The notes under the pieces are model-generated. The model did not search any database. It was not told the DNA's origin and worked only from the letters and a program-made list of their open reading frames with translations. A DNA stretch of 26,694 nt from a virus, in the IMG/VR virus record IMGVR_UViG_3300010883_000360, positions 1 to 26,694 of that record. The stretch is one strand, 5' to 3'. This document shows positions 7,087 through 26,694 of this stretch, in pieces (the stretch's first letter is position 1; each line of letters opens with the position of its first letter). Made by a program: the position numbers and the translations under genes.

Positions 7087-7090
7087 ACTA

Positions 7091-7104
7091 CATTATACAC
7101 TTTT
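7091..7104 (-). promoter_or_regulatory. AAAAGTGTATAATG element before gpI-like copy 1
   Basis: On the minus strand the sequence AAAAGTGTATAATG fills most of the 16-nt gap before the GTG start and overlaps the stop codon of the JAB gene. It contains a perfect TATAAT hexamer whose last base is 5 nt before the start codon. The same AAAAGTGTATA core occurs in the two other real gaps of the window. As a promoter it would give an almost leaderless message; as a translation element it would replace a Shine-Dalgarno. Which of these applies cannot be decided from the sequence. Confidence 0.4.
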
Positions 7105-7501
7105 AAATGGAAAAATAAATCGTTTCTTCACTAACAGGGCTATACAGCGAGAACTTTTTATCCCGCACAGAAAAAACCAAAAAATCTATAAGCGCATTGC
7201 GCGACATCTCCACATCCATTGAACTGGGCTCACAAGAGCCCTCCGGGTGCGAATGGAAACAAAAATCCAGCTTAGACTTCTTAAAAATATGAAAATAATC
7301 CAAAGGGTCTATCAAAAAACCAGTTTTCTTGTCAGGAGCCATGTTTTTTAAAAAAAATAAACTACTTTTTGTACCTAGCCCACATATTTCAGTGCCGCTT
7401 AACAAAGAAACTCGTGTTATAAGTTTTAAAAAATTTAATTTAATTGGTGTATCGATAAGCTTCAATTGATGGAAAACCCCCAAAAGGCAAACCGTGCCCA
7501 T
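7103..7501 (-). CDS. JAMM/JAB metallopeptidase, gpK N-terminal-half-like tail protein
   Basis: The 132-residue protein has a complete JAMM zinc-peptidase motif: Glu38 in GTEICGLG, then His83-Ser-His85, seven residues, Ser93, two residues, Asp96 (HSHPEGSCEPSSMD). Lambda gpK has this domain followed by an NlpC/P60 cysteine peptidase; here the frame stops soon after the JAB fold, so the second domain is absent. Its place between gpL- and gpI-like genes supports a tail-tip assembly or processing role. I chose ATG 7501, which has a GGGGGTG stretch about 5 nt upstream and overlaps the gpL-like gene by 62 nt. The frame is open further upstream and a GTG at 7558 would give 151 residues with a 119-nt overlap. 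The JAB fold itself begins only near residue 20, so an even later non-ATG start is possible. Confidence 0.85.
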   Translation of the reverse strand: MGTVCLLGVFHQLKLIDTPIKLNFLKLITRVSLLSGTEICGLGTKSSLFFLKNMAPDKKTGFLIDPLDYFHIFKKSKLDFCFHSHPEGSCEPSSMDVEMSRNALIDFLVFSVRDKKFSLYSPVSEETIYFSI

Positions 7502-9020
7502 CTTCACCCCCGGCAAATTCCTCGTACCTAAGCCTGCAAGAAAATAGAGTTTTGCCACATTGATCTTCTCGCCAATATTCGCTCTTATAGCGAGGATCTT
7601 GCGCTGTATAATGATCCTTTATGCACACAAAAAACCTATCTAAAGAGACTCCCGGATTCACCACCGAACTTTCCGGTTTCGTAAAAGCCGTAGGCATTGC
7701 AGGCTTCACACGTACCATATCACCTATTACATAACCTACCGTACCAACAGTACCTGCCGCTACTGATCCCCCTGTGGTAGGAGTTCTTAAACCGCCGTAT
7801 TTTATCTCCCCTATAATACCTCTATAATTAACGGTCGCACTAGCAATGGAAGTGGCGTCTTTTTCGGCGGTTGCGCTTAGTGCTACTAAAGAGCCATCAC
7901 TAAATTTAACTGTTCTACCTCGTGATATTTTAGCTGTGATACCAACGTTTCCAACCTCGTTGTCCGCCACAGGCCCAACTGATAAGGTACCAAAAATAGA
8001 AGTAGCACCACTACTAGCCGTTGCAGATACCTCCAACTCCCCTCCCCCACTAAATGTTATAGTTTGCCCTTTATCAATTATCCTAGAAGTTGCATCGACC
8101 GTTAGCGCGCTAAGCGTGTAATCACCTGCAACATAACCGCCCACCTTATCAATCTTAACAGTGGTCCCAACATCAATTGTCCCATCTTCGTCATTAGCCA
8201 AAGCACCCGTGATGATAGTTGTAAAACCACTATGATCATAATCATAAGCCCAATTAAGCCTACCGAGACCATAACCACCATCACCTACAAAGTCTTTATC
8301 ATTCTCATCTGCCACAACTACCCCTAAATTAGCCGCAAGATTGTCGTCGTCCGATTTACCATCAGCCGCATCCTCCTCCAAAAAATACGCCGCACCTTGT
8401 TTAGATAAGGCTACAGGGCCCTTCATTGCCCCTCTTTGTCCATACTTGCACCCTAGCCCCCTATAATGCCAAGGACAATAATTAGCGATCATGATACGAG
8501 CCGGAAGCTTAGCGTTCTCCATCTCCAAAGGCGAAACAAGCTCAAACTCAATAATATATTTATTTTCAGTTACCTTTCTATTAAATACATATATATCATC
8601 GTCAAAACGAGAGCTCGGATCGGAAGTGGCAAACGGGTTTATACCCTCTGGAAAATTTTCTTCGTCTATATACTTAAGGAAAATTCGTATTCTTTTAAAT
8701 AAACTGCCCACTAAATCGTCGCGCCGCTTAATTAAATCTGTAATAACACCCCTTGGGTTAGCTACCGTTAGTTTAGGCCTAGGCAACTGGCCGTCCCCTC
8801 TCGATTCAAAGCCATCAACCTCAAAAGGTATAGAAAAGTATGTATGTGGAACCTTAATGCCCTCTTCAGTCACTTCCGACAAAACAATATCTTTCTCGAT
8901 TAACTTTCCCGCGTGAAACCTTTTGATACCATCTGACCCTCCTAGCTCCACCTCATACAACTCTATAATTGTGTCCGGCAGAAGGTCGCTTATTGATTGG
9001 TTATGTGCTTGTGTTGACAT
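7440..9020 (-). CDS. gpL-like minor tail protein with large insertion
   Basis: The 526-residue protein is about twice the length of lambda gpL (232). Residues 1-195 match the family's N-terminal domain and end with the first cysteine pair, Cys182 and Cys191 (NYCPWHYRGLGCKYG). The second pair, Cys488 and Cys495, sits in QCGKTLFSCRLRY, followed by the typical LPFGGFPSIE end. In gpL these four cysteines hold an iron-sulfur cluster. Between the pairs lie 296 extra residues: two beta repeats of the GATS type (about 302-400), then a segment (about 429-486) with YVIGDMVRV, FFVCIKDH and YW that resembles a small chitin-binding-like (CBM5/12) domain. The gene starts two nt after the giant adhesin gene with an A/T-rich leader and no Shine-Dalgarno. 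The role is tail-tip assembly; the insertion probably adds surface binding. Confidence 0.87.
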   Translation of the reverse strand: MSTQAHNQSISDLLPDTIIELYEVELGGSDGIKRFHAGKLIEKDIVLSEVTEEGIKVPHTYFSIPFEVDGFESRGDGQLPRPKLTVANPRGVITDLIKRRDDLVGSLFKRIRIFLKYIDEENFPEGINPFATSDPSSRFDDDIYVFNRKVTENKYIIEFELVSPLEMENAKLPARIMIANYCPWHYRGLGCKYGQRGAMKGPVALSKQGAAYFLEEDAADGKSDDDNLAANLGVVVADENDKDFVGDGGYGLGRLNWAYDYDHSGFTTIITGALANDEDGTIDVGTTVKIDKVGGYVAGDYTLSALTVDATSRIIDKGQTITFSGGGELEVSATASSGATSIFGTLSVGPVADNEVGNVGITAKISRGRTVKFSDGSLVALSATAEKDATSIASATVNYRGIIGEIKYGGLRTPTTGGSVAAGTVGTVGYVIGDMVRVKPAMPTAFTKPESSVVNPGVSLDRFFVCIKDHYTAQDPRYKSEYWREDQCGKTLFSCRLRYEEFAGGEDGHGLPFGGFPSIEAYRYTN

Positions 9021-9022
9021 TT

Positions 9023-12000
9023 TTATTTAAAATAAATAGGGCCGGCAAACCCATTCCTATCGGTCCCATAAAGGTTCGTCTTGGAGCGGATTAGATCCGC
9101 CCGTATTCCTAGCTCGGTTGTTTTAATGTGTAAATATTTATTCATTAAATAGCCAGTCACACACACCCTTTCCGACTCAGTCAAAGTCCTGCTATATATT
9201 AAAATCTCTGCTATAGCTCCATGAAAACCAACTTGTTGGTTGGCGTCAATTTGGCTTGCTCCTATAATCGGGGCAGACATAAAATTAAAAGTTTTGCCAG
9301 CGAAAACCTCCTGCCCCATAGGTTTTCCCTCGTTTCTGGTGCGATAAATAAGGGCCTGTTGTGTGCTCGTAGCCCTTAAGTTATAAGACCATGCTCGATA
9401 TACAGGCAATTTATCCGTATTATCGAACATAGCCCAATCTCTAAACTGAAACATATCGGTTCCTTTTAAACCCATAGTTTCCTGAACAAGGTTTGTATCG
9501 CGACCGTAATATTGAGAGATATGCCGACTACTAAGATCAGAAAAACGCGTAAAACCGGTTTTATATGTAGGAGTTAAATTTCCTTTGCCCCCCGCAAAAA
9601 CAAGCCCAGAGCCGCCAGTTTCTTCAACACCGCTCCACTTATCCGCGTAGAGCATATAAAAAATTTCAAAACCCCTCATTGTAGAAGAAAGCTTTGTCCA
9701 CCCTTTGGTGCCTTTGGTGATTGTTGTTGCTGCCTCTGCTCCTGCGGTATAAAGCTTACCAGTTAAAGTCACCTGTGACACAGAAGCTGTGGCGGCACCA
9801 CTCAAAATAAATTTGCTTGTTGTTGGGGTCTCGCTGCCTTTCTCGAAATAAATAGCCGTACCGCTGGCTAACCCAATACCCAAAGAAGCCACCTTTAGAG
9901 AGGTTGCCCCCGTGGTGGCGTTTTCGTCCACTGTTATGTCGTTTGCTGTAGCTCCCACTAACTCAAAATAATCTGCTGCATTAGCCGCAGTGGGATAAAA
10001 ATAAACATAATTTTTAGAATTAAAATATTCGTCAGTCAACGGCGAAGGGTTCGTTGTCCCAGCGCCCGGCTGCGACGTATGGGCAGCCGTCGCCGCAAAA
10101 AATGTAGGCCTTGAAGCTGCGGCAGTTTGTTCCAAATAAACATTGGTAGGATCGTTTTTAGACTTCCATGTTTTTATAGCGGTGTTATTAGCGATTGTAC
10201 TGCCTGCGCTATCTAAAATATTAGAAGTGTCTTGAGCATCAAACTGCGCCACCAACCCCTCTATATTCGAGGGATCAAAGAATCTAGGTCCAATAAACAA
10301 CATCTTGTCTCGAAAATTTGTTGGTGTGTAATGAGCTGTACCGCTATAATCAAGAATACGAATAGCCTTACCCGGTACCCCTCCAAGCCTTCCCCCTGAA
10401 TTACCTTTGTCAATGGTAAATGGATCGTCTGCTTCTACTTCATCTTGTTGGCCCGTTCCCCCAATACCCCCAAAAACAGAACCGCTGCCCCCGTAAGTGT
10501 TATTCTGAGATGAACCAACGCTGTGTCCGGCCCCAAACGCTTTCAATGTTCCATTGCTTATATCAAGGGGTTCAATTGCAAGCGTTGAATCAACGCCATT
10601 CTTCGCTTCTAGTTTTACTCTTTTTCCACCCTTGGAAAGGATGGGTGGGATCACTATACTGTTACTGAAACCCTGCCCCCCTCCACCCGCACCACCGTAA
10701 TGCGGCCCCACAAGGCTACCTGCCAGCGTTACAGCCAATCTTCCAGCTTTATGAGTGGTTTTCGCGCCATTCCCTAAAAAAGTATTAGGGTTGAGTCCAC
10801 CGGACTGTACAGATAACCCTATATTTGTGAATAGTAGCTCATCGATTGGCGGCATACCCCCCGAATATTGATTCCTAATAGTTTGACGCCAATCTTGTGA
10901 GGCTGAACCAGTCCTTGAAGTACCTGTAGTCACACTTCCGGAACCCCCTTTGACACTCAATTTAAATGACTGCTCCGAATTAAGTCGGTCACCAGCGCCT
11001 CCTCCTCCTCCTCCTGCTAAAATCTGAGCTGAATAATCTTTTTGTATCTCAAACTTGGCGATGTCTTTATGGGTAATCCGTACAGCATCGCCGCCCCTTT
11101 TGCCTTCTGAGGGATCTATAGATTCGCCTACATAATATGCTCTTTCAGGCGAGTCTTCGCTTGGCTTATCGGTCGTAATATAAGTAAAGCCCGCATTACC
11201 CCCGTCTCCACCTTTACCCACAATAGCAGAACCCTCTTTCATAATGAGAAGAGTGGGGGTTTCTTTTATGGGTTTTGTAGCATGGGTGGGGCCAACCCCC
11301 GTTAACAATTGATAGCCGTTTTCGATAGCGCCTAAACTGGTATTACAAGTACCCACAGTTGCGGCTGCTAACGTAGAGACTACCACAGCGGTCCCGGCGA
11401 CAGATGTATCTCCCGCGCTGGCATCAGCGCTTAACGTAAAAGTATCGTTTCCAAAATAAACAATATCCCCGTCTTCAAGAAGGGTCGTCACAGGATCGAT
11501 AGACATAGTGGATGCCCCGTTTGCCAAAGTACTGCTTAGGGTCACGCTCATATCTTGGGTTGTTGTAACCGCCCCAACAACATGACTGCTTCGTACTACA
11601 TATTGAACCCCTGTAAAATTCTCCGCATATATGCCTGTAGCAGGAGAAGTAGTATCCACTCCTCCCTCTTGTTTAACCATATTTCTATTTACTAGTTCCG
11701 CATCAAATTTACCGCTCAAATTGACGTTTGTTTCCCCATCATCCAAATATATCACCAAGGGCTGTTTGGGCCCTGTAGGAATTTTAATACGATCCTGCGT
11801 ATAAGTAGCAGATCCTGCAGTTAACCCTGTTTCGACATCTTCAGACACTATTTGCTTAAGGTCATTGGTTCCGCTAGCATACACCCACATAGAATTATGC
11901 CCTGCACCTCCCGCGACGCCTTGAAGTTCTGCTCTCATTCTATAATAGTAATCTTTATTAAACCCAAGAAAGCCAGTGTGCATATAAGTACTGGGTTGGC

Positions 12001-14179
12001 GTACTCCAGTATTTATCGGATCGTCTAAATCTATAAGGCTCGGTGGGACCATTGCTCCGGTATACAAATTGGTCCCCACGGTGGCGCCTTGGTAAGAATC
12101 AGTAATATAACGATAATTTACATTATCATAATCAACGCCAGTCCAGTTACTATTATCTTCTGAGTTCTCTATGCTGTATCGGGTCGTATAGTATCCGCTT
12201 TCAGGTACGCGCCATGTCAAAAAATTCCTCGGATACCCCGAGCTTGTGTCATAAATCCCTGTTTTTATTAAAAATTTCTCTGGGCTTCCCGGGTTATCAT
12301 CTACAATCCCTCTGAACGGATTCCCGGCTCCAAGCCCCGTCACATATCCTGTAATTCCTAGTGTAATTGGGCCGCTAATATCTGCCACCCCATCTGTCTG
12401 GCTGACACTAGTAATAGAAAGAGAGGTGGTATAAATCCCGTTATTAAACGGTCCGGTACCAGCCACAGGCCCTGAGAGATTATCCAGCATCCCATTAAAA
12501 TAAAACGGAATAAAAGCATTTTTGCCGGGAGGAATTGGTATAGGTTTATTGATGCCGCTAGGAAATTCAAAAGCCTTAAAGGCATCGTTGCGCTCTATTC
12601 GTGTTTCAAGGGAGTATCGACCGCTGTTAGTCAAATAAAATCCTGTCCGCATGGAAAATCCCGTTACAACGTATGTGGATAAACCCGTATTCGATACAAA
12701 CGAGGTATTCTCTGGCCTCTGCTGAGTGGAAACCGCCCCCGCACTCCCCAGCACAGGCCGGTTGACCACAGTAATTAAAGTATTGAACTGATCTTCAACT
12801 GTTAGGTAATCTACAGGAAACTCTAAAAATTCTACTGTTATATCGTTATTGTCTTTAAATTTTAATGAATGATTCCATCTCTGACAAATAAAAACCTTGT
12901 CGGAAAAATTATAAGGAGCTGGCAATGTAAACCTAATCAAATCAGTGCCTCTATGATGTTCCAGAAAATGGATAATGGCCTTGGCCTCCGTGTCTGTTCG
13001 TCCTGTCAGCTGAAGGGAAAAAGTCAACAGATTTTTGTTCAACCCATCCTTCATTCTAACATAAAAGTCGTTTTGGAGTTGAGGCTTTATAAAGCGAGGA
13101 TTTTGGCTAATATTTAACCCGGCTTCCACATCAAAATAAAAACGATCTTTGGTCCAAAGCGTCCCACCTCCACTTGGGCTATTATAATCGTCAGAACTTA
13201 CCCCTGTCGACGGGGCGTCTCCTGTGAAATAATACCATCCAGATTGTAACGGCGTCATTAACTGGGAGTCCGCGGCATTTGTCGATTCAAAAAAGACCGC
13301 ATCATGTTTATAGTAAGCTTCTCCGGTGGGATTATACCCTTGGCGCGTACCGCTCCACGGAATCGCAAAACCCTTCCAGTCCGTTAAGCTTTTGGTTTCG
13401 TTGAAAAAAGAAGTGGATACAGTATTAACATCTGGAGAGTCGTACTGGTGGTCAAAACTTTCTACAAAAAATCTTGCCTCAAGGTCGTACGGGTTAAACG
13501 GTGTCCATTTGATTCCGGTGTATCCCCCGCTTGGACGCTCCCCTTTGTTGAAAGAATCGTCTAAAAGGTGTAGCAACGCCTTGGTCTCCTTGTCTGTCCG
13601 TTTTTCAAATGAAACGTTAAACGTTGCCTTTAAAGCATTTTCACTTCGATTGAGAAAGTTAAAGTAGCCATCGCCATATTTTATTCCATAGTAGCTCGTA
13701 TCATAATTCACTGACGCCCCATAAGATGCCTCAAAATAAAAATCTTGAGTCCAATTGTTAGTCCCTTCAACTTTATAGGTTTCAGCACTACCCACCGCCT
13801 GAGATACGGTCACCGTCATCTGAGTAGCACTAGTAAACGCCGTTATTACCCCGGGACTAGCAGATCCTCCCGTAAAATAAAACGTCATACCGACCATCCA
13901 TGCTTCCCATGTTGTACCTACCCCCGTAACGGTGTTACCGCTTTGTGTTACGGTTCCTGTAGCATATGAAACTGGTGTCGCGGGAGTATTATCCACCCCC
14001 GCTACTTGAGTAGCATTGCCAGTATAATAATAATGACCTGATTGAGCTTCTGTACATGCGGTTTGCGTTGCACCTACATTATAACCACTAAAATAAACAA
14101 TATCATTTTTCTCATAAGTGGCCCCAATGGCAAATGGGTCTACACCTTGAATATTAGTTGCTCCAGAATTTAAAATCAT
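9023..14179 (-). CDS. Fusion of two gpM-like domains with a glycine-rich/LamG-like adhesin
   Basis: From ATG 14179 the protein is 1718 residues; this start overlaps the previous stop as ATGA, and the longer frame from 14284 would overlap that gene by 109 nt. Residues about 148-255 and 346-458 are two copies of a lambda gpM-like (minor tail) domain: copy 1 has YGIKYGDGYFNFLNRSEN and WTPFNPYDLEARF; copy 2 has FYVRMKDGLN, a FLEHHRGTDLIRFTLP segment and VFICQRWNHSL. Lambda gpM is only 109 residues. The middle is beta-rich, then glycine-rich at about 976-1276 (GGGGGGAG, GGAGGGG, GGDGG). Residues about 1296-1685 look like a concanavalin/LamG-type lectin, from IEGLVAQFDAQDTS and IKTWKS to IAEILIYSRTLTESERV and YLMNKY, with a beta insert at 1416-1480. 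The gene therefore probably makes both a tip component and a host-surface-binding arm. Confidence 0.8.
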   Translation of the reverse strand: MILNSGATNIQGVDPFAIGATYEKNDIVYFSGYNVGATQTACTEAQSGHYYYTGNATQVAGVDNTPATPVSYATGTVTQSGNTVTGVGTTWEAWMVGMTFYFTGGSASPGVITAFTSATQMTVTVSQAVGSAETYKVEGTNNWTQDFYFEASYGASVNYDTSYYGIKYGDGYFNFLNRSENALKATFNVSFEKRTDKETKALLHLLDDSFNKGERPSGGYTGIKWTPFNPYDLEARFFVESFDHQYDSPDVNTVSTSFFNETKSLTDWKGFAIPWSGTRQGYNPTGEAYYKHDAVFFESTNAADSQLMTPLQSGWYYFTGDAPSTGVSSDDYNSPSGGGTLWTKDRFYFDVEAGLNISQNPRFIKPQLQNDFYVRMKDGLNKNLLTFSLQLTGRTDTEAKAIIHFLEHHRGTDLIRFTLPAPYNFSDKVFICQRWNHSLKFKDNNDITVEFLEFPVDYLTVEDQFNTLITVVNRPVLGSAGAVSTQQRPENTSFVSNTGLSTYVVTGFSMRTGFYLTNSGRYSLETRIERNDAFKAFEFPSGINKPIPIPPGKNAFIPFYFNGMLDNLSGPVAGTGPFNNGIYTTSLSITSVSQTDGVADISGPITLGITGYVTGLGAGNPFRGIVDDNPGSPEKFLIKTGIYDTSSGYPRNFLTWRVPESGYYTTRYSIENSEDNSNWTGVDYDNVNYRYITDSYQGATVGTNLYTGAMVPPSLIDLDDPINTGVRQPSTYMHTGFLGFNKDYYYRMRAELQGVAGGAGHNSMWVYASGTNDLKQIVSEDVETGLTAGSATYTQDRIKIPTGPKQPLVIYLDDGETNVNLSGKFDAELVNRNMVKQEGGVDTTSPATGIYAENFTGVQYVVRSSHVVGAVTTTQDMSVTLSSTLANGASTMSIDPVTTLLEDGDIVYFGNDTFTLSADASAGDTSVAGTAVVVSTLAAATVGTCNTSLGAIENGYQLLTGVGPTHATKPIKETPTLLIMKEGSAIVGKGGDGGNAGFTYITTDKPSEDSPERAYYVGESIDPSEGKRGGDAVRITHKDIAKFEIQKDYSAQILAGGGGGGAGDRLNSEQSFKLSVKGGSGSVTTGTSRTGSASQDWRQTIRNQYSGGMPPIDELLFTNIGLSVQSGGLNPNTFLGNGAKTTHKAGRLAVTLAGSLVGPHYGGAGGGGQGFSNSIVIPPILSKGGKRVKLEAKNGVDSTLAIEPLDISNGTLKAFGAGHSVGSSQNNTYGGSGSVFGGIGGTGQQDEVEADDPFTIDKGNSGGRLGGVPGKAIRILDYSGTAHYTPTNFRDKMLFIGPRFFDPSNIEGLVAQFDAQDTSNILDSAGSTIANNTAIKTWKSKNDPTNVYLEQTAAASRPTFFAATAAHTSQPGAGTTNPSPLTDEYFNSKNYVYFYPTAANAADYFELVGATANDITVDENATTGATSLKVASLGIGLASGTAIYFEKGSETPTTSKFILSGAATASVSQVTLTGKLYTAGAEAATTITKGTKGWTKLSSTMRGFEIFYMLYADKWSGVEETGGSGLVFAGGKGNLTPTYKTGFTRFSDLSSRHISQYYGRDTNLVQETMGLKGTDMFQFRDWAMFDNTDKLPVYRAWSYNLRATSTQQALIYRTRNEGKPMGQEVFAGKTFNFMSAPIIGASQIDANQQVGFHGAIAEILIYSRTLTESERVCVTGYLMNKYLHIKTTELGIRADLIRSKTNLYGTDRNGFAGPIYFK

Positions 14180-14988
14180 ACCGTTCTTTTGCCTGTTAAA
14201 TATAGTTGAGACATACCAATTGAGCCTCTCATGTAACCATTGGTTCCTACTGAAATGTTTTGAGAAAAGGCTTGTCCAGTGCACCCGAAACGACCAATAG
14301 CTGTAGCACCTGCATCGGCGTATACATCGTGAATATAAATGTCCAAGGTAGCCTCGTAGCCTGTCGTGGTTAACACATCCCCCAAGTCTTCCCCTTCAAC
14401 GTTCATGTTGATTGTGACATTTTCCTTTGTCACCCTGATTGGAAGGCCGCTTCCAATCGGAACCACAGGGTGGCGTTCTGTCGTTACAGAATAACTAAAT
14501 CCTAACTTGCTATTGACGCCTATATCCGTACCAGCCATATAGGTACGAGCACCATGCCCAATTGCACGAGGCTCCTCCCGCGTACCTCTCATCGCACTAT
14601 CACTTTTACCTGATACCTCTGCGCTTAGTTCTCCATAAATATCTAAAGAAGATCGTACCGCAATAGGCTGAAAGGGACTTACCGAAAAAGAGAGACCCTT
14701 GATATATCCGCTACTAAATTCAATTCCGCCCAAACTGCCCTGCAACGGTTCGCCTGTCCATTCTACAGCAGTTAGAGGATTAAGAAAAGGGTGAAGTGCC
14801 CCCGTCAAATAATGAGTAAACTCTAATGTCCCCTTCAGAGGAGCAGTAGGAGCATACCTTATAACACTACCTGTAATATTTTCGATAGGAGCAACAGAAG
14901 CTTCAACGCCTAAGGTAGCATCCTCGGCAAAAATGCTTTTGCCTTCAATTTCCAATAACGCTTTTTCATATTTTATGAATTTAGCCAT
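14176..14988 (-). CDS. Tail-tube/Dit-like protein, second paralogue
   Basis: This 270-residue, beta-rich protein has no confident family match, but it shares spaced motifs with the 322-residue protein encoded at 16711-17679: APLKGTLEF, WTGEPLQGSL, an F-x-S-GYI strand, and a final G-x(2)-G-S-I-x-M strand. That pattern suggests the two are distant paralogues with the two-layer beta fold used by tail-tube and distal-tail ring proteins. The start is ATG 14988, two nt after the fibre-like gene, with only a weak TAAGA upstream. It ends in an ATGA overlap with the gpM-like fusion gene. Because it lies between the tape measure and the tip genes, a ring at the tube/tip junction is a reasonable inference. 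Confidence 0.6.
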   Translation of the reverse strand: MAKFIKYEKALLEIEGKSIFAEDATLGVEASVAPIENITGSVIRYAPTAPLKGTLEFTHYLTGALHPFLNPLTAVEWTGEPLQGSLGGIEFSSGYIKGLSFSVSPFQPIAVRSSLDIYGELSAEVSGKSDSAMRGTREEPRAIGHGARTYMAGTDIGVNSKLGFSYSVTTERHPVVPIGSGLPIRVTKENVTINMNVEGEDLGDVLTTTGYEATLDIYIHDVYADAGATAIGRFGCTGQAFSQNISVGTNGYMRGSIGMSQLYLTGKRTV

Positions 14989-14990
14989 TC

Positions 14991-16709: not shown

Positions 16710-16710
16710 A

Positions 16711-17679
16711 TTAAAGTTCCTTATTTAAAAAGTCTACGAATTCTAGATTTACACTTAACACACCATCAATGGATGTATTTATGTTTTCCGATATCAGCTG
16801 TCCCGTCACGCTTCTGAAATTATATAATGTACGGCGTCCATTATCTAACAAATCTTCAGGAACATGGTCTTTCAGCGCATCTCCTACATTGTCCTTGAGT
16901 GGCTGAATCCCATTTGTGCTTTTATTAATTTTTAATTGTATTGTTTCATAATGACCACTTCGTATCGTATCCATAATATTGGCCGTTTCGAAATCGTCAA
17001 CTTCTACTGTAAAATTTGTTCTTACTTCTATAGGGTAATTTGTAAGCACCTCAGTTGGCACAAAGCCAGCGCCTCCTGTTAAGTCTGATGCCGTTTTCTG
17101 GGAAAGATCATAAACAGGGTCTCTTTGAACTGTGTAGCTTTGTGCCGCCTGTACCACCCTGTTTGTTCCAGACTGATTTAAGCCACATTCAATAGACCCC
17201 TGATTAGCAAATGCAAAATATTTTTTTTGAAAATCAACATCAGAATTAGGCGCTTGACCAGAACAATCTAAATCCCCTTCCCTAATACCGCTCCCAAACC
17301 GCCCAAAACTAACAAAAGAACAATCTACTGTAGGCACATCTCCAATAGCGCAGTTCACACTATAGTCGGTCAAATAGCCCGTATTAAAACCTAACACCTT
17401 CTCTCCTCCTCCATCTAACTCAGTGTCATATATTAAAGTGCCTGAAAGTGGGGACTCTCCCGTAAATCTTAAAATAGGGTCATCATACAAAATATCTCTA
17501 GCAAAAGACATGGTTCCCTGCAGTGGACCAGCATAAATGTTTCGCACAAACCCGACCCCTAAGGCATCTACCCTTTGTTCGGGAACGCTGTAACCTGCAC
17601 TAATATCACGAATACCAGACAATCCCGTACCGTTTACAAAAAATTGTTGTTCATAGCTTGGTACTGCGTTTTTTGCCAT
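16711..17679 (-). CDS. Tail-tube/Dit-like protein, first paralogue
   Basis: This 322-residue, beta-rich protein follows the tape measure gene with a TAATG stop/start overlap. A good ribosome site (AGGAG about 6 nt before ATG) lies inside the end of the tape measure gene. Conserved-looking segments are GPLQGTMSFARDIL, LRFTGESPLSGTL, GFNTGYLTDYSV and CAIGDVP, then a C-terminal half with VRTNFTVEVDD and a final GVLSVNLEFVDFL strand. The spacing of the first motifs matches the 270-residue protein two genes on, so the pair looks paralogous. In many phages the ring that joins tube and tip (distal tail protein) follows the tape measure gene, which fits this position. A major tube role cannot be excluded because no other tube gene is visible in the window. 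Confidence 0.62.
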   Translation of the reverse strand: MAKNAVPSYEQQFFVNGTGLSGIRDISAGYSVPEQRVDALGVGFVRNIYAGPLQGTMSFARDILYDDPILRFTGESPLSGTLIYDTELDGGGEKVLGFNTGYLTDYSVNCAIGDVPTVDCSFVSFGRFGSGIREGDLDCSGQAPNSDVDFQKKYFAFANQGSIECGLNQSGTNRVVQAAQSYTVQRDPVYDLSQKTASDLTGGAGFVPTEVLTNYPIEVRTNFTVEVDDFETANIMDTIRSGHYETIQLKINKSTNGIQPLKDNVGDALKDHVPEDLLDNGRRTLYNFRSVTGQLISENINTSIDGVLSVNLEFVDFLNKEL

Positions 17680-20600
17680 TACCTTCTCCTACCTCCGGGA
17701 CTCAAGCTGCCACCGACTCGTTGCTCCTCAACAATAACGCGCTTGACCGCATCTGCTATTCTTTTAGACAATTCCTTGGAGCTACTACCGTTATCCGAGC
17801 TTATATCTTGTCCGCCTTGCTGAGGTCCTGCGTTTTTATCTGTTTCACTATTTGACCCAGTGGAAACATTAATACTAATGTTGTTTGTATTAGAGGATGG
17901 CGCTGAAAGGCCCCGCACAGCGCCTCCTGCTTGGTAGCCGCTTCCTAGGCCGTATCTCTGAACCACTCCTCCGTATTGCCTCTTAGGAGGTTTAGGAGCA
18001 TCGAAACCAATTGGCTCCTTGGTAGAAAAATCCCTTGGGCCCGTCCATGCTTTATCCTTTTTAAACCAACCTTTTTCAGAGGCTGCATCCATTCCCTTAA
18101 ACACGGCTGCACTGGCCATCATAGTAGCAAAGCTGGTCCATAGCGCTCTCTTTTCTGCTTTTTTAGCTTTGCGCTTTTCCTCTTTGGCTCTCATGCTCTC
18201 CAATAATTCGTCCAACTCTGGACTACCAGTGGCATAATAAAGGCCACTCATTCTACTACTCAAAGGATCTTCATTTAAAGCCATGCGTCCCCCAAAGCGA
18301 GGGGCTGCCCCAAAATTAATCTTATCTAAAGCAGCTGGCCCTCCCATTGCTGCTACTGCGTTTCTATTCAACACATATTCGTGAGGTTCCGCCATGATAG
18401 GAATCTTGTCTCCGCTTCCTGAACCGGGAACAGATAAGCCTCCTTGAGCATGAATAAAACCTCCATTTCGAAAAGCAGGCTCCTTTTTCCCCCCACCCGG
18501 AATAGACCCCACAATATTGGTAGCAATCCTCTGTAAAAATGCGCCACGAACCATCTTCAAAACATCAACTGCCATAGCTCTCATAGCATCACCAATACTC
18601 TGGGCTCCATCTAGCCCAGCCTCCATTGCGCTAACCAACCCATCTCTGAGTTTGACCGGCAGCTGTTCGCCCAATAAATTAAATATTGTTTCTCCCTCTT
18701 CGCGTACTGTGCCCATCCCTGTAGCCCAACCTGCACTAAACTGTGTGTCCAAAAACGCCTGTTGTTTTTTCAGGAGGTCCGTGGTTGAAACCAATAGTTC
18801 TTGTCTTCTTTCTTCTTCTTTATTTATATCTTCTACCGAATTTAGTTGTATCAACAAGCCTTTTGCAGCTTCTTTAATGGAAACATTCTTGCTCTTTTCT
18901 AAACTCTCTAGTGCGCTTCTTGCATCCTTAATTTCCTGAAGTACAATTGTTTTACTTTCAGCTTTGCCGCCCTTTTGGCCGCTACCCGTCCCAAAGTCGA
19001 CATCAAGTCCCATGAAATTTCTGATGCCACCTTTTTTGGCGCCACCTGTTCCGGGTATTACCGTGGCTCTTGCTCCACCAGTGGTGGTATCAGTCATCGG
19101 ATCTAATCCGATACCTACTGGACCAACAGAACCACGATAATTGGCGGTACTCCACTTAATCTTATCTAGAGTAGCGGCATCTTTTCTCATTTGATTGGGA
19201 TCTTTGCCTTGAGAGATCCATAGGCTGTTTTGTCCTTCGTCTTTTAATGTTTTAGTATTAGTTTCTAATGCTTTGACCAGCTTTTGCTGCTGGGTGATCA
19301 TTTGCTGTGTTATACTCGTTTCTATTTTTATGGCGCTTATTAATTCAATCTTTTTCTCTACATCTTTTTTCGTCTCATTCAATAAATCGTCTCGCATCTT
19401 TAAGTCTAGAGCGTCGGATTTAGCTTTTTCCTCGATCTGTTGACGCGCAACGCCTTGATTAATGGCCCTAATAGCTCCCTCTAGTTGTGACTGCCTGTCG
19501 ATTTTCTCTACACCCGTCATTCCCTGAAAAGTGCGAGAGTTAGCAAGTTGAAACTGCAAGCCAGCAGTAGCCACATCGGCGCCTGTACGCAACTGAGCCA
19601 TCCGAAGATCAGAGCCGCCTTGAATTTTTTTCTGCTGAAGGATTGCGTCTCGCTCCCTTTCAATGTTACGTGCTTTTATTTCTTCAATCTTAAATTTTAT
19701 TCTATTTAGGCGTTCTTCTTTATCTACAACAGCCGAGGCCTTGTCCCATGTTATTCTTAATTCGCTAGCAACCTTTTGAATTTGCGCATGTTCCACCTTA
19801 CCCCCAGCCTTTTGGCCTGCTTTGCCCTCTAGCATCTCAAGTCCCGTGTCGATATCTCCAGACATAAAAGTATTTAAAACTTCGGAAAGCTCAACAAAAC
19901 CTTCCGCCCCTTTGTTAACGCGCGTCTCCATGGCCCCTCTTATTTTAGACAAGTTAGCTTGATTAAACTTAGCAGCCGCTGTGCTTCTTTTTTGCTCAAT
20001 AACGGTTTCTCCCGCACTGCGCCGCATACCAGCCGCTTCAGTAGGAGACAGTGCTCCCGACAACAAAGAAAGGCGCCCTCCCAAAATGGCAGCTCGCTCT
20101 GCAATATTAGTATCAATTTCCGTAGTAAGAACAGAGATATCTTCAATCATCTTCAAGTAGGGGTTCATGAATCCACTCATCGTTTGAAGAAATTCTGTTT
20201 GGATTTTTGCAGCATTATCAATGATGGTTGTTTTGCCACTCTCTGCAAAAGCATGTTTCCGAAGCTCTTGCAACGACTGTATGATTCCTTTTGTACCTCT
20301 TGTCGTATCTCCCACAGAAAGTTTTACGCTCATATTGTCCAAAGCGCCTACAAAATCTCCAAACGCCTCTAATTCTGCTCCTGTTAAAGACTTTAAACCC
20401 TCTCCCCCTAACTCTTGAAAGTCTTTTATCATGGTGCTTTCAAATGTAAGGGGGCTTTTTAAGTTGCTGGCCATTTTATCTTGGAGCTTTTTTACCTCTT
20501 CTTCGTCTAAACCGCCCAATAGTAATTTTAAAAAATCTTTATTAGCTGAAGCAAATTTTTGAGGATCAAATACATCCATCTTTTTTGTAAATGTTTCCAA

Positions 20601-23600
20601 GTCAATATCCCCCTCAGCACTTTCACGCCAGTCCTGCCATGTTACCTCCTTATTGTCGAAAAATTTACCTTTTCCTGTTTTTACTGATTCGGCGGATACA
20701 GCTGCCATGCGGACTTTTCTTTCGCTAGATACGGCATCAGCAAAAGCTTCTAATTTTTTTGTCATTTCTCCAACATTGGTTCCCGCCTCCAAAAAATCTT
20801 TTTCTAGATCAGTCCCGGCCAATGCATCTAATGCGGCCTTGGCGTCTTTTGTCGCGCTTGCCAAGTCTTTTTCATTAGTAGCTAACGAAATATCCTTCAT
20901 TGCTTGTACATAGGACTCTCCCGCAGTTCCGGTTTTCGCTATCGTTGATTCAAACTCTTGCATCTCTTTAGACATGCTCTCTAAAGACTGAGCGCTCATA
21001 ATCGCCGCGGTAGCTAACCCACCTATACCTCCGACGGCTGCGCCAATTGCTGTCCCCGGTCCCGGGGCAATCATCGAACCTATACCCGCACCAGTCCCTA
21101 AACCGGTCAAAGCTCCGCCAGTTAAGCTTCCTGCTCGCCCTCCTATTGCTTGTTCCGCCATACCTCCGATCATAGGAGCGCCCATCATAAGAGCCATACC
21201 GCCCATACCGCCCATACGGCCGCCCGCTCCTTTGGCTAAATGCTTCTTGTAGTCAGCAACACCTGCTTTGGTGCGAGGGAATCCAAGATCCGCCATAGCC
21301 TTGGTGCTGACGCCTTTAAAAGGGGAGACAGCAAAGTTTGGTACATCCTTTAATCCTCTTGGTTCATCTATTTTATTAGTAACAGCTAGCCCTGCTGGGT
21401 TCCGTGGGCTGTGGAATCGTGGAGAGGTATTAATGCGAATAGCCGCCGAAGGGACTCCTGCCGCTTTTTCTCTGCCAATAGCCGCTCCAAGCCCCCCTCC
21501 TGCAAAATTAGGAATATAACCACTAGCAAACGTGGGCAATCCACGTTGAGCAAGCGTTTCCCCCATTGGAGTCTTCAGATTTATACCGTCTAAAGCGCTC
21601 TTGCCGCCTCTTATGTTGCCCATTATCTTCACAGCCGACTTAACTGCTGGAATGCCGAATTCCTTCATTGCTCCCGGAACGGCCGCCGCGAGGGGCAAAC
21701 CAGCCGCCGCCCCAGTCGCATAGTGTCGGGCCAACCAATTCACCGCTTGCGCAATTTTATTTTGACCTAATTTAGCTAATAGGGTGTAACGCGCTTGCTG
21801 TAATTTATCGATCATGCTTTTGCCAACCTTCGCGCCCCTCCCTAGAAGACCAGCACTACCCATTTCTTTTTTGGTCAACATAGCTTTAGTCATAAACGGC
21901 GTCAAGTTGACTGGAAGCCCCCTCCCTGCAAAATTAGGCACATAACCCCTAGAGGCTCCGCGCTTACCCTTTGCGCGAGGTGGCGCTAACAATCCGCGGC
22001 TCTGTAAATGCGCTTCAATTTTAGGAGCTGTCAAAGAATCCCCAAAAGCCTTAGGGATTAAGGAGGCAATATTAGGGGCCGAATCCTGCCTTTTCGCATC
22101 TGCCCTTGTTACATGTTTACCCTTGAAGGCAAATTTCCTCAAACGAGAAGCCATTTTTCCTGTTTCTTCAAAGTCAAAGCGAGCCCCTTCGTCTGAGTCG
22201 AACTTGCTTGACTGACCAGATGCTACTTTAAGGGCGGATTCCAATATTGCGCCTTCGGCGCTAGTAGAAAAAACCTGACCGCGCTTTTGTGTTAAACCTT
22301 CAAGAAATGCCTTTCCGTCATTCTTCAGCATCTTACCAAACATTGACTTAGCATATTTCCCTAAAGCTGGAACCATATTTTGGTTTAATGTCTCAGAAAA
22401 GTCTTTTGCAAGCGCTTCTTTATCTCCGCCTTTACTTAGTTTGTTTAACCCCTTCACCGGAATGCGTGATAAACTAATAGGCATTGTTGGATTTTGTCTG
22501 GCGAATTGAGCTAAACGAGGGCTTTTAATGCTCTTTGCTTTTTCGCCAGCTATCATTTTACCCAGCGTGGTACTCGTGCTTTGCATGTTGGCTCTATTCT
22601 GAATTCCAACGATAGCTCCTACACCTAAACTTTTTGGCCCAGAAGCCCTAAGAAAGATTCCCCCTTTAGCGTTAGCCTTATCTCTAGCCACCGCGGCTTT
22701 GGTAGTCATCTTATTAACTCGCTCTGCTCCGGTTTTTCCGTACTTACTTCCTACGTTTGTTTTTTGTATATCATGCGCACTAATAGTCCCACCTTGGACA
22801 CCCCTCATCAAACCTGTCATCGTCGACCCACTTTGCTGCAAATACTGGGCCGGAGTCGTCATCGCAAAATTGGGCACATAACCTTGAGCAGCTGTAATCT
22901 TTTTGGCTCCTTGCGGCAAACCACCATTAGCTTGCACCATCGCCGGATTAAATATAGCTGAGCCACCGCCCCTAAAATTAGGAACAATGTGCTCGCCCGT
23001 ATTAGCAACCATGGAGCCCTGTCGCCCTCCTCCAAATGCAAAATTAGGAATATGCACTGGGCGAGCTGACGAACTCACCCCTCCTGTCCCCCGACGAATA
23101 TCATGCATTTCGCCTGCTACACCGGGAATATAACCAGAAGCCCCTCTTCCGAATGCCCCACGACCCTTTGGCACAATTGCACCCATCTTATTGGTGGTCA
23201 TCCCTGCGGCGGCTAAATTACGAGCAATGGCAGCCGTGGTAACAGCTTGCGCTGCAAACGCCGTTTCTGCTTTTTGAGCCGCTCCCAGTAAAATGCCTGC
23301 TTGTACTGCTGCATTTCCTTCCGCAGTAGCAATCTTCTGAACAAGGCCCGCATCCGTAGAAAGCATGGCGCTAATAGTAGCCTCAAGCTTAGCTCGTTTT
23401 TGGGTTTCATTGGTAATGCCGACAAGAGTCGGCAGTGCTTTGGTGATATAGCTAAGAGTTTTAAATACTGTAATCCCAATCACAGAAATAGCTGAGACCA
23501 TCCCGGGACCCGCTATAATATTACGTAATCCTTTCAGAAATCCGTTCGCAAAATCAGACCCTACACCTTCCCCGTCAAGCAGATTATTAATACCTTCCGT

Positions 23601-24794
23601 AAGAGCCTTGAAAGGCCCTAAAATAGCTCGAGCAATAGGCTCAAAGGTTATTTTACCAACGTTTTCTTGGAGTCTCGTAAGCTCTGTTCCTGTTTGAGAA
23701 ATTAAAGCGCTCAGAGTCCGGTTTAACCTCTGGTTTGCCATGTCGGCCTGATCGGTAGCTCCAACCGAGACTTCGAGGGCTCGATTGTAAACCTGATAGT
23801 CACTATTTAAATCCTTAACGAGAGCAGAAAGAATATTCGCTTGGAAAACACCTGCTACCTGCTCTCGCAAATAAGCCTTGCTTGAATCCTCTAAAGTTTG
23901 ATATGTGCCTGCAAAAGACTTTAAAATACGCATCGCAGGTAACGTGTTTCCCTCGATATCCCTAACAGCAATATTATAAGACTCTAAAGCTTTCAAGGTA
24001 TCTTGGCGCTGCAAACGCGTAAAAATCGTTTTCATAGCATTACCTATAACAGCCCCTCCTCGTCCTGTTTGTTGCTGAACAGCGGCAACCGTCGCATTCA
24101 GCTCGTCAAACCCTACCTTCGCATCTACCGCAGAAGAACCAACTCGCCCCAGCGCCTCCATTAAATCACGAGCCGAAACAGCAAACTTTGTTTCCACGGC
24201 TACAAATTTATTTACAGCGCTTGTTGTGGTGATCGCGCTTTTCTGGAAAGCGTTCACTGTGGCCGTCAAGGAAGTAACGGCTTTTTCGGCATTCACTCCC
24301 GTCAACCTGACCAATGTTAAAGCATCAGCAGTTCTCTTCAAAACTTCTTCTGTCTTTAAACCTTGTCGGCCAAATTCTAAAGCAGCTTTTGCTACGTCCT
24401 CAAATGCCGTGGCTGTCTTTTTGCCTATACCAAATAATTCGTCAGCAAAGCGAGAAAACTCTTTGTTGCTGATTCCTAAAATTCGATTAATATCTGCAAA
24501 TTGCTTTTGAACAGTGATCGTTGTTGTGGCAAGCTCTTTAAAAGCTTTAGAAATACCACCAATAACAGCTGTAGAAGCGCCGAAAGCAATGACACGGGCA
24601 TTGGAAGCTGCTAATGCAGATTCAAATTTATCTAAATCTCCCGTTATCCGCCCCAACGGCTGACGGAACCCTTTTTCATTGACCTTAAGATTAAGTTTGC
24701 TTTTGCCTGCTTTAGACCTATTAAAAGTATCTACGCCTTTTTGGATAGAGGCTTGAAGCCTTTTGTCATTAATGATGGCATCGAGTTTGATCAT
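17679..24794 (-). CDS. Tail tape measure protein, TP901-like, with PNFA repeats
   Basis: The 2371-residue protein is the largest gene and sits after the two chaperone-position genes. Residues about 90-330 match the TP901-type tape measure core (AALEFGRQGLKTEEVLKRTA, GVNAEKAVTSLTA, RGGAVIGNAMKTIFTRLQ). About 550-1160 holds six [I/V]PNF motifs and embedded modules. About 1190-1265 is a Gly/Met/Ala-rich hydrophobic zone (GGMGGMALMMGAPMIGG onward) that could insert in membranes. About 1270-2100 is mainly helical and charged. About 2120-2170 has the C-terminal motif common to tape measures (SGDKIPIMAEPHEYVLNRNAV and the following MGG-x-AAL). The protein would span the tail tube and be ejected with the DNA. 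At about 0.15 nm per helical residue it could set a tail of up to roughly 350 nm, less if the embedded modules are folded. The start ATG 24794 has no Shine-Dalgarno but lies downstream of the GTGTATA element. Confidence 0.93.
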   Translation of the reverse strand: MIKLDAIINDKRLQASIQKGVDTFNRSKAGKSKLNLKVNEKGFRQPLGRITGDLDKFESALAASNARVIAFGASTAVIGGISKAFKELATTTITVQKQFADINRILGISNKEFSRFADELFGIGKKTATAFEDVAKAALEFGRQGLKTEEVLKRTADALTLVRLTGVNAEKAVTSLTATVNAFQKSAITTTSAVNKFVAVETKFAVSARDLMEALGRVGSSAVDAKVGFDELNATVAAVQQQTGRGGAVIGNAMKTIFTRLQRQDTLKALESYNIAVRDIEGNTLPAMRILKSFAGTYQTLEDSSKAYLREQVAGVFQANILSALVKDLNSDYQVYNRALEVSVGATDQADMANQRLNRTLSALISQTGTELTRLQENVGKITFEPIARAILGPFKALTEGINNLLDGEGVGSDFANGFLKGLRNIIAGPGMVSAISVIGITVFKTLSYITKALPTLVGITNETQKRAKLEATISAMLSTDAGLVQKIATAEGNAAVQAGILLGAAQKAETAFAAQAVTTAAIARNLAAAGMTTNKMGAIVPKGRGAFGRGASGYIPGVAGEMHDIRRGTGGVSSSARPVHIPNFAFGGGRQGSMVANTGEHIVPNFRGGGSAIFNPAMVQANGGLPQGAKKITAAQGYVPNFAMTTPAQYLQQSGSTMTGLMRGVQGGTISAHDIQKTNVGSKYGKTGAERVNKMTTKAAVARDKANAKGGIFLRASGPKSLGVGAIVGIQNRANMQSTSTTLGKMIAGEKAKSIKSPRLAQFARQNPTMPISLSRIPVKGLNKLSKGGDKEALAKDFSETLNQNMVPALGKYAKSMFGKMLKNDGKAFLEGLTQKRGQVFSTSAEGAILESALKVASGQSSKFDSDEGARFDFEETGKMASRLRKFAFKGKHVTRADAKRQDSAPNIASLIPKAFGDSLTAPKIEAHLQSRGLLAPPRAKGKRGASRGYVPNFAGRGLPVNLTPFMTKAMLTKKEMGSAGLLGRGAKVGKSMIDKLQQARYTLLAKLGQNKIAQAVNWLARHYATGAAAGLPLAAAVPGAMKEFGIPAVKSAVKIMGNIRGGKSALDGINLKTPMGETLAQRGLPTFASGYIPNFAGGGLGAAIGREKAAGVPSAAIRINTSPRFHSPRNPAGLAVTNKIDEPRGLKDVPNFAVSPFKGVSTKAMADLGFPRTKAGVADYKKHLAKGAGGRMGGMGGMALMMGAPMIGGMAEQAIGGRAGSLTGGALTGLGTGAGIGSMIAPGPGTAIGAAVGGIGGLATAAIMSAQSLESMSKEMQEFESTIAKTGTAGESYVQAMKDISLATNEKDLASATKDAKAALDALAGTDLEKDFLEAGTNVGEMTKKLEAFADAVSSERKVRMAAVSAESVKTGKGKFFDNKEVTWQDWRESAEGDIDLETFTKKMDVFDPQKFASANKDFLKLLLGGLDEEEVKKLQDKMASNLKSPLTFESTMIKDFQELGGEGLKSLTGAELEAFGDFVGALDNMSVKLSVGDTTRGTKGIIQSLQELRKHAFAESGKTTIIDNAAKIQTEFLQTMSGFMNPYLKMIEDISVLTTEIDTNIAERAAILGGRLSLLSGALSPTEAAGMRRSAGETVIEQKRSTAAAKFNQANLSKIRGAMETRVNKGAEGFVELSEVLNTFMSGDIDTGLEMLEGKAGQKAGGKVEHAQIQKVASELRITWDKASAVVDKEERLNRIKFKIEEIKARNIERERDAILQQKKIQGGSDLRMAQLRTGADVATAGLQFQLANSRTFQGMTGVEKIDRQSQLEGAIRAINQGVARQQIEEKAKSDALDLKMRDDLLNETKKDVEKKIELISAIKIETSITQQMITQQQKLVKALETNTKTLKDEGQNSLWISQGKDPNQMRKDAATLDKIKWSTANYRGSVGPVGIGLDPMTDTTTGGARATVIPGTGGAKKGGIRNFMGLDVDFGTGSGQKGGKAESKTIVLQEIKDARSALESLEKSKNVSIKEAAKGLLIQLNSVEDINKEEERRQELLVSTTDLLKKQQAFLDTQFSAGWATGMGTVREEGETIFNLLGEQLPVKLRDGLVSAMEAGLDGAQSIGDAMRAMAVDVLKMVRGAFLQRIATNIVGSIPGGGKKEPAFRNGGFIHAQGGLSVPGSGSGDKIPIMAEPHEYVLNRNAVAAMGGPAALDKINFGAAPRFGGRMALNEDPLSSRMSGLYYATGSPELDELLESMRAKEEKRKAKKAEKRALWTSFATMMASAAVFKGMDAASEKGWFKKDKAWTGPRDFSTKEPIGFDAPKPPKRQYGGVVQRYGLGSGYQAGGAVRGLSAPSSNTNNISINVSTGSNSETDKNAGPQQGGQDISSDNGSSSKELSKRIADAVKRVIVEEQRVGGSLSPGGRRR
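21330..23150 (-). repeat. GY[I/V]PNFA motif series inside the tape measure gene
   Basis: Six copies of [I/V]PNF[A/R] occur at about residues 581, 603, 640, 951, 1095 and 1151 of the tape measure protein, with a degenerate GYIPGVAG at about 553. At the DNA level three copies keep a nearly identical core (plus-strand GCAAAATTRGG followed by CATAACC or ATATAACC near 21500, 21930 and 22865). The spacing is irregular, from about 20 to 310 residues, and different sequence lies between the copies. The motifs therefore look like boundaries around inserted modules rather than a uniform tandem repeat. Confidence 0.8.
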
Positions 24795-24800
24795 AGTGCG

Positions 24801-24826
24801 CTATTTAGTAAAATATACACTTTTTT
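24801..24826 (-). promoter_or_regulatory. AAAAAAGTGTATAT...AAATAG element before the tape measure gene
   Basis: The 48-nt gap 24795-24842 between the chaperone-position gene and the tape measure start carries, on the minus strand, six A followed by GTGTATAT and, six nt later, AAATAG. The copy before the plus-strand gene at 26660 has the same two blocks without the spacer. The distance from GTGTATA to the ATG is 19 nt here. A late promoter for the tape measure and downstream genes is the simplest reading, but no experiment is implied. Confidence 0.42.
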
Positions 24827-24842
24827 CAAATGTTTGTTCACC

Positions 24843-25829
24843 CTATGTCATCGTTTCCATTAAATCGTTCATATCCATTTTTCCTCCTTTTGCCTTTAAC
24901 ATGGAACTAAGTGATCGCCCTTGTGGATTTTGCTGTTCCCCTAAATACTCGTAATCTTCTTTTGTTGCTCCCATGACGGTCGAAGCCCCATCTTTATCTA
25001 AATTGCTTAGGGCGTCTTTTGCTTTATCTTGTGAGTTTACATAATCAATAATCTTTGCAGGATCTTTCCTAATAGCTTCTGGGATTTTTGGGTGAGTTTC
25101 GAAAATATTTTTAAACATACGAGTAAACACAATCAACTTGACTTGAAGGGAAGAAAGATCAAATAGAGGTTTGTTATAAAAGTTCATTACGCTATCAGCA
25201 AAAGGAAAATAAGCCGCATAAAAATCCTCCAAAGTTAATCTTTGTACGTTATCATCATCAACTTGAGCAACTTTTTGATTATACTGCCCAACAAGATGTG
25301 CCATTTCAGATTGAGTGATCTCGTCTATAGCTATCTGATCCAAAAGAGGGTCAAGAAGCAACTCATCTTTAAAAAAAGATTTTAAAATATAAAAATCACT
25401 AACTCGGTTACGCGCATATTTTTCACAAGTGTGTCCTATAAGCTCCTCTTTTTTGGCTTCTAGCTCCACCAATTTTATTTTGGCCTCTTCCAGTTGAACC
25501 TCGTTCTTATCGAGATCACTTTTGAGATATAGTTGTTCCCGGGTTTTAGTTACGCCTTCAAGATAGGCTTTCTGCTCATCTACAATTCTTTGATCTTCAT
25601 CAACCCATAACTCTTCTTCCTTGAGTCTTTCTAGGGCTTCCTCCCTAGTAGGCAAACCTTTCTTTTTGGCTCTGTCAAAATAAGATTGATCTATTTCCTC
25701 TAAATCTACCTGATCTAAAGTAGACAAGTGTTTAATGTAAACAGCTTGACCCTTCCAGATACCTTGGGAAAAACCTTGAACAATATCCCTAAATATATAC
25801 CTAAGATTTATCTTCTTCGGTGGGCTCAT
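24843..25829 (-). CDS. Tail-assembly-chaperone-position protein (gpT-like slot)
   Basis: This 328-residue charged protein lies directly before the tape measure gene, where lambda has the T part of the gpG/gpGT chaperones. I do not recognise its family from sequence alone. Visible features are a hydrophobic/aromatic N-terminus (INLRYIFRDIVQGFSQGIW), a long Glu/Lys-rich probable coiled coil at about 60-135, a HTCEKYARNRVSDFYI segment, and a flexible Gly/Met/Lys-rich C-terminus. Its ATG at 25829 lies inside the preceding gene (29-nt overlap), in the +1 frame, right after an in-frame TAG and with no Shine-Dalgarno. It may therefore be made by coupled restart or as a +1/-2 frameshift extension of the upstream protein. 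Being larger than the lambda proteins, it should be treated as a positional call. Confidence 0.7.
   Translation of the reverse strand: MSPPKKINLRYIFRDIVQGFSQGIWKGQAVYIKHLSTLDQVDLEEIDQSYFDRAKKKGLPTREEALERLKEEELWVDEDQRIVDEQKAYLEGVTKTREQLYLKSDLDKNEVQLEEAKIKLVELEAKKEELIGHTCEKYARNRVSDFYILKSFFKDELLLDPLLDQIAIDEITQSEMAHLVGQYNQKVAQVDDDNVQRLTLEDFYAAYFPFADSVMNFYNKPLFDLSSLQVKLIVFTRMFKNIFETHPKIPEAIRKDPAKIIDYVNSQDKAKDALSNLDKDGASTVMGATKEDYEYLGEQQNPQGRSLSSMLKAKGGKMDMNDLMETMT
25801..25829 (-). other. Gene overlap, candidate programmed frameshift site
   Basis: The last ten codons of the upstream gene (GAT GAG CCC ACC GAA GAA GAT AAA TCT TAG) are read one base later as ATG AGC CCA CCG AAG AAG ATA. Only within these 29 nt are both frames open, because a TAG closes the second frame just upstream. 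A +1 move at CCC to CCA, or a -2 move in the GAAGAAG stretch, would fuse the two proteins. No classical -1 slippery heptamer is present and a -1 shift would not enter the second frame. Confidence 0.35.
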
Positions 25830-26592
25830 CTACAGGGTCATAAGTAAGATCCTCTACGATCTTTTGAAAGTCTTCTTTTGTAGGATTGCCACTAAAGTAC
25901 CAGTAGCTCATTAGCGCTGTAATTTTGGATTGAACCAACATAAAAAGCTCGTCCTCCTCTTCGTCTTTTTTATAAAAAACATCAACTCGATCCTCTAGTG
26001 TTTTTCCGGGGAAGAGAGATGTGACCTTTTCCTCCTCAGGCTCCTTGTAATATACTAAATTCAAAAGATACCATAGTATTACTCTATTCTGGGCCTTAAC
26101 ATCAGCTGTATGGTTAAAAAGACTTTGATAAGAAGACTCTAATTCCACAATGTCCCGACGAACAAGCGCCATTTGCCCGTAGATTTTTTTAGACTTTTCA
26201 CTCAGCGCTCCACTTTTTTTTCCACTTGTTTGCACGCCTCTTTTTGCCGCTTGGGTTTCCAAGTCTGAAAGAGAGCCGTATAGATCCACCAAACGTTCCG
26301 CATCTTTTTCTGTCAAAATGCCTCCTGTATCGGAATATTTTTTAGCCAACATAGCTTTGGTTAAAACTCCCTTTTTGACACAACGGCTAATTTCAATGGA
26401 ATATTCCATATCGGCATCTTCAAGTTGGCGCCTAGTAGGCTCTTTCAGGACTATCTCATAAGGCATTTTTTTCGTGACCTTTTTGGAGATTTCTATCTCT
26501 TCCTCTTTGCCTGCCTTGTTTTTTCGCTTTTCTTTGGTCTTTTCTTGGACCTCTTTGGTCATTTCGACTGTAAAACTATAAATAGACTTCAT
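25801..26592 (-). CDS. Tail-assembly-chaperone-position protein (gpG-like slot)
   Basis: The 263-residue, highly charged protein is the first gene of the minus-strand operon. It begins with a Lys/Glu-rich stretch (residues 10-45, EKTKEKRKNKAGKEEE), then EPTRRQLEDADMEYSIEISR and KGVLTKAMLAKKYSDTGG, a probable coiled coil, and a helical part with HTADVKAQNRVILWYLLNL. The C-terminal tail is acidic (DPVDEPTEEDKS). No enzyme motif is visible. The position two genes before the tape measure and the overlap with the next frame match the gpG/gpGT arrangement of tail assembly chaperones, which coat the tape measure before the tube polymerises. The family is not certain. The ATG at 26592 has an AT-rich leader without a Shine-Dalgarno. 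Confidence 0.72.
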   Translation of the reverse strand: MKSIYSFTVEMTKEVQEKTKEKRKNKAGKEEEIEISKKVTKKMPYEIVLKEPTRRQLEDADMEYSIEISRCVKKGVLTKAMLAKKYSDTGGILTEKDAERLVDLYGSLSDLETQAAKRGVQTSGKKSGALSEKSKKIYGQMALVRRDIVELESSYQSLFNHTADVKAQNRVILWYLLNLVYYKEPEEEKVTSLFPGKTLEDRVDVFYKKDEEEDELFMLVQSKITALMSYWYFSGNPTKEDFQKIVEDLTYDPVDEPTEEDKS

Positions 26593-26659
26593 ATCTTATA
26601 AATTATGCTTTTAAAATAAGTTTTTTCTAAAAAAAAATTAAAAAGTGTATATAAATAGT
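26593..26659. promoter_or_regulatory. Divergent AT-rich intergenic region
   Basis: These 67 nt separate the minus-strand tail operon from a plus-strand gene and are almost entirely A and T, with poly-A/T tracts (nine A at 26630-26638). On the plus strand, 26640-26658 reads AAAAAGTGTATATAAATAG, ending just before the ATG at 26660; it includes TATAAATA, the same octamer as the T4 late promoter consensus. On the minus strand a looser version, TTAAAAGCATAATTTATAAG, lies before the ATG at 26592. A pair of outward-facing promoters is the likely content. No hairpin terminator was seen. Confidence 0.5.
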
Positions 26660-26694
26660 ATGGCAAGCCTTTTAACAGATGCAGAAAAAACAAC
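26660..26694 (+). CDS. Start of a divergent plus-strand gene (cut by window edge)
   Basis: An ATG at 26660 opens a plus-strand frame whose first residues are MASLLTDAEKTT before the window ends. It is supported by the GTGTATATAAATAG element directly upstream, which is also found before two minus-strand structural genes, and by the absence of any other gene here. The short hydrophobic-then-acidic start recalls small virion or head-completion proteins of some phages, but twelve residues are too few to assign a function. If real, the gene shows that the structural region switches strand here. Confidence 0.55.
   Translation, partial: MASLLTDAEKT

Follow-up and report, generated by a model that had tools for sequence, protein, structure and literature searches.

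Late transcription in phage T4 uses promoters of the form TATAAATA, which consist of a -10 element only and are read by a small phage sigma factor, gp55. The RNA polymerase holoenzyme of phage phiEco32 (Kuravirus) that contains the sigma factor gp36 recognizes a single box, tAATGTAtA, with no -35 element, and RNA starts 6-8 bp downstream of it (PMC8948821); promoters of this sigma factor are also covered in two further papers (PMC4281155, PMC4331800). The late promoters of phage 7-11, read by its sigma factor gp47, follow the pattern GTAAtg-(16)-aCTA (PMC8948821), and leaderless messages have been noted in phages before (a remark in PMC5312081). Here we compare these systems with a short element in a 26,694-base virus fragment (hereafter the window, meaning the whole stretch of DNA analysed), and consider it very likely, judging from sequence patterns, that the element is a single-box late promoter dependent on a phage sigma factor and giving rise to near-leaderless messages at two of its window sites.

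Copies of the element in the window

The minus strand of the window carries a lambda-like siphophage tail module comprising J, two I-like assembly genes, K-like and L-like genes, a 2371-aa tape-measure-like gene and the two genes preceding it, next to which a divergent plus-strand gene begins at 26659. The lambda gpI-like genes form a tandem pair (5771-7086), both belonging to phrog_32, apparently through duplication. The two genes preceding the tape measure, in the position of the tail chaperones, share 29 nt read in different frames (25801-25829), where a programmed frameshift like that of lambda G/GT is possible; a classic slippery site was not seen in this overlap. At the contig edge, the last ORF ends in peptide repeats (2-100), possibly the cause of the assembly stop.

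As the original prediction had held, ORF ends leave only three gaps of more than 2 nt in the window (7087-7102, 24795-24842 and 26593-26658). The sequence AAAAGTGTATA occurs exactly three times (7094-7104 and 24814-24824 on the minus strand, 26641-26651 on the plus strand), with one copy per gap oriented toward the next start, an exact count that bears out the claim of an element in all three gaps facing the following gene. The reversed AAAAGTGTATA control had no copy in the window, and the 11-mer core was not found elsewhere in it even when one mismatch was allowed, whilst shuffles gave an expectation of 0.67 copies of AGTGTATA in the window. Gaps account for 130 of the 26,694 bases, and the probability of three random sites all falling within them is about 1e-7. 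The distances from element to start first reported (7, 19 and 7 nt) were correct, and these three starts do indeed have no Shine-Dalgarno sequence.

Scored with the matrix described below, the three sites rank first to third in the window, the next score being 11.5, inside a gene. Element 1, AAAAGTGTATAAT (7092..7104, minus strand), has the highest score of the window (16.1), overlaps the stop codon of the preceding gene and precedes a lambda gpI-like tail assembly gene whose GTG start (7084..7086, minus strand) lies 5 nt past the motif in the sequence. Element 2, AAAAAAGTGTATATT (24812..24826, minus strand; score 15.5), precedes the tape-measure gene, with its ATG start (24792..24794, minus strand), also free of a Shine-Dalgarno sequence, 17 nt past the 12-bp motif. 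Element 3, AAAAAGTGTATATA (26640..26653, plus strand; score 13.8), precedes the divergently transcribed gene with its ATG start at 26659..26661 (plus strand), the distance from motif to start being 5-9 nt in relatives. If RNA started about 6-8 nt past GTGTATA, by analogy with phiEco32, the start at site 1 would fall at about 7088-7085, sites 1 and 3 would have leaders of 0-2 nt, and site 2 would have one of about 12-14 nt. A degenerate fourth element, AAAGCATAATTT (26600..26611, minus strand), points toward the gene at 25801-26592, the left-hand one of the divergent pair; it is weak, scoring 3.8 in the window and 11.4 in two relatives (G033 and G034), and distant relatives have AAAGTGTTTATT or AAAGTATATATA at its place.

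Enrichment, conservation and transcriptional context in relatives

Randomly seeded expectation maximization, run on 202 regions upstream of genes that a home-made caller had placed in 15 related contigs, recovered the motif AAAGTGTAWWWT (AAAGTGTAwwwT), which was used by 53% of the regions. For scoring, a matrix was refitted using eight distant contigs, and seven more, the window among them, were held out. In these it gave 8.49 hits/kb upstream of genes versus 0.115/kb in coding sequence, a 74-fold difference; when reversed, it had no hits upstream of genes in these contigs. Because training and held-out contigs are homologous, at about 68% nucleotide identity, this test is not fully independent. 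Motifs were enriched at starts on both strands. The original prediction had named this comparison as a check, and would have been refuted had the motif not been commoner ahead of genes than within them; run on relatives, the check found it far denser upstream. Start codons lay most often 5-8 nt past the motif end (41/87), the full spread being 3 to more than 25 nt. The G-T-G directly preceding the box was nearly invariant, and no clear -35 element was found, the preferences seen about 16-19 nt before GTG being weak. An ECF -35-like GAAC preceding site 2 was not conserved.

Conservation was assessed at orthologous starts that had been found by protein similarity and not selected for the motif, seeking GTGTA within 45 nt upstream and counting distinct upstream sequences. 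GTGTA was kept in all 16 for the tape-measure gene, all 5 for the I gene, 18 of 19 for the divergent gene (down to 36% protein identity) and 48 of 53 for a 520-aa head gene. The major capsid gene served as an internal negative control, with GTGTA in only 4 of 57 and the Shine-Dalgarno sequence AAAGGA instead. Element 1 was retained in all nine I-gene relatives, namely eight plus one more with 72% protein identity. All three sites were present in one relative (G001) and two of the three in another (L032), and the divergent and tape-measure sites recurred in about 18 further contigs. The AAATAG originally noted as shared by two of the copies was replaced by TGATAG, AATAG or ATATAG in relatives; we therefore rejected it as an incidental extension. 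Searching all viral contigs for the pattern AAAAGTGTATANNNNAAATAG retrieved 16, which we took as chance matches since 15 had a single copy and, for the one with two, the control was equally frequent.

Copies of the motif directly follow intrinsic terminators in five relatives (G027, G028, G031, G034 and G035), for instance at G027 7458(+), G028 16541(+) and G031 10173(+). The terminator of the capsid gene is followed by the motif in G028, G031, G034 and G035, and in the close clade by GTGTATACT. Shine-Dalgarno sequences were found at none of the 51 starts lying no more than 9 nt from the motif (shuffles 2.6), at 22 of 116 gapped starts without the motif (shuffles 6.2) and, as a Shine-Dalgarno word, at 25 of 117 gapless starts (shuffles 12.3). 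The spacing of motif and start, this absence of Shine-Dalgarno sequences and the start-site rule of phiEco32 agree in pointing to messages that would be leaderless or nearly so. In G034 and G033, the motif stands at head and tail genes, whilst several genes that do not belong to the structural block carry TTGACA/-10 promoters and no motif, and few starts score for both promoter classes. The TTGACA/-10 promoters lie 6-11 nt from the start, those of the genes at G034:1318, 4047, 7116, 12024 and 13225 at 6-10 nt, so that late genes may not be the only ones with near-leaderless messages. Late expression of the motif-bearing genes is suggested by their position in the genome. G034 (L138-L140) and G033 (L134-L137) also contain carbamoyltransferase, fucosyltransferase-like and glycosyltransferase genes, as well as C-type lectin, pilin-like and mechanosensitive-channel-like genes.

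A candidate sigma factor and competing readings

Relatives encode an ECF-type sigma factor of about 240 aa adjoining PhoH, just upstream of terminase and portal, with L054:1058-1768 as an example; the gene lies outside the window fragment, to which it is linked via relatives at about 68-70% nucleotide identity. Sigma-70 region 2 (PF04542) was detected in 11 of the 15 related contigs, and TIGR02937 (sigma70-ECF) was matched by all 27 aligned orthologs, spanning residues 31-202 in the first, where the match was below the NCBI curated cut-off. Of the sigma-70 regions the protein has just 2 and 4, as defines an ECF factor, and four invariant cysteines lie between the two domains. Twenty of the 27 orthologs matched phrog_1740 (best 1.8e-7), which represents the gp36 family given that phiEco32 gp36 itself matches it at 1.9e-45. 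Kinship with gp36 is nevertheless remote and depends on the shared PHROG, because direct hhalign profile comparison of the sigma factor with gp36 alone found no match; a PDB sequence search with the sigma profile also returned no match. The AlphaFold model was modest (pLDDT 71.6, pTM 0.47), yet its best structural neighbours were sigma factors, led by ECF types, and the region-4-like domain aligned with 2h27 (Z 8.2, rmsd 2.4 over 68 residues); the absence of gp55 among the structural neighbours listed is uninformative. PhoH is the first gene of the block holding the sigma gene and is preceded by the motif in G028, G031, G033 and G034, which suggests that the sigma factor amplifies its own expression.

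Together, these features very probably mark a -10-type late promoter with the consensus AAAGTGTAWWWT and no -35 element, read by host RNA polymerase carrying the phage-encoded ECF-type sigma factor, our candidate for its cognate reader. As in phiEco32, an ECF-like phage sigma in phrog_1740 accompanies a single box without a -35 element and with the core nTGTATA, and promoters of this class precede structural genes while other genes have host-type promoters, here as far as gene position goes. The differences are that AAAGTGTAWWWT replaces tAATGTAtA, the main changes being a G in place of A ahead of TGTATA and a trailing T, that this is a siphophage with a lambda-like tail, that its sigma, in which four cysteines occupy the linker and the C-terminus is region-4-like, has no direct sequence match to gp36, and that the element is near enough to many starts for near-leaderless messages. 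Phage 7-11 is similar in having a phage sigma and late promoters before structural genes, but its promoter is in two parts rather than a single box. The type of system is thus already known from phiEco32, whilst this member, in an uncultured siphophage family, is new. Among the points against the phage-sigma reading is that the predicted sigma factor has a region-4-like domain, yet no clear -35 element was found.

A promoter for the host sigma factor, composed of a TAWWWT -10 box and an upstream GTG, with the phage sigma serving another purpose, is unlikely. TAWWWT does resemble the sigma-70 -10 box, and the TTGACA/-10 promoters of the same phages lie at a similar distance (6-11 nt) from the start, but a near-invariant GTG is not the sigma-70 extended -10 (TGn), there is no -35 element, and the two promoter classes seldom share a start; the element moreover resembles the gp36 promoter of phiEco32 and is accompanied by a phrog_1740 sigma. 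A role in translation, which the original prediction had offered as an alternative, found no support. Proximity to starts without Shine-Dalgarno sequences would suit an A-rich ribosome entry signal, but the variable distance to the start (3 to more than 25 nt), the absence of the element from gene junctions of 1-2 nt that are also translated, its position after terminators and the existence of a matching sigma factor make this very improbable. Least probable of all is a T4-like late promoter with gp55, TATAAATA and sliding-clamp activation, which shares with the present case a -10-only architecture and a small phage sigma, and whose exact TATAAATA occurs at site 3, but which we rejected since the consensus largely rules it out: it is GTGTA that is conserved, TATAAATA at site 3 is not kept in G001 or L032, and the sigma has its ECF model matches in regions 2 and 4. 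By contrast, the original proposal of a phage-specific late promoter serving both strands is strongly supported by enrichment on both strands, conservation, terminators and the sigma factor in relatives.

Phage group and significance

The major capsid-like protein of the relative L032 (3250-4389) has at least 254 relatives in IMG/VR, which form a large group of uncultured phages in marine and other metagenomes, and searches of INPHARED gave no match for the capsid, head or sigma protein. Assignment of a host was rejected given that the bins of capsid relatives disagree (Rhodospirillales, Flavobacteriaceae, Patescibacteria, Verrucomicrobiales and one more). A promoter whose motif precedes most structural genes can now be assigned to this large environmental phage group, very probably together with its sigma factor. 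Somewhat short of an even chance, in our view, is the broader picture in which the late programme runs mostly from single-box promoters and yields many leaderless messages while the capsid gene keeps its Shine-Dalgarno sequence, so that promoter architecture would set the mode of translation. Ultimately, the element makes early and late genes predictable from sequence alone in this phage group, and offers a clear and testable example of phage late messages that are expected to be leaderless.
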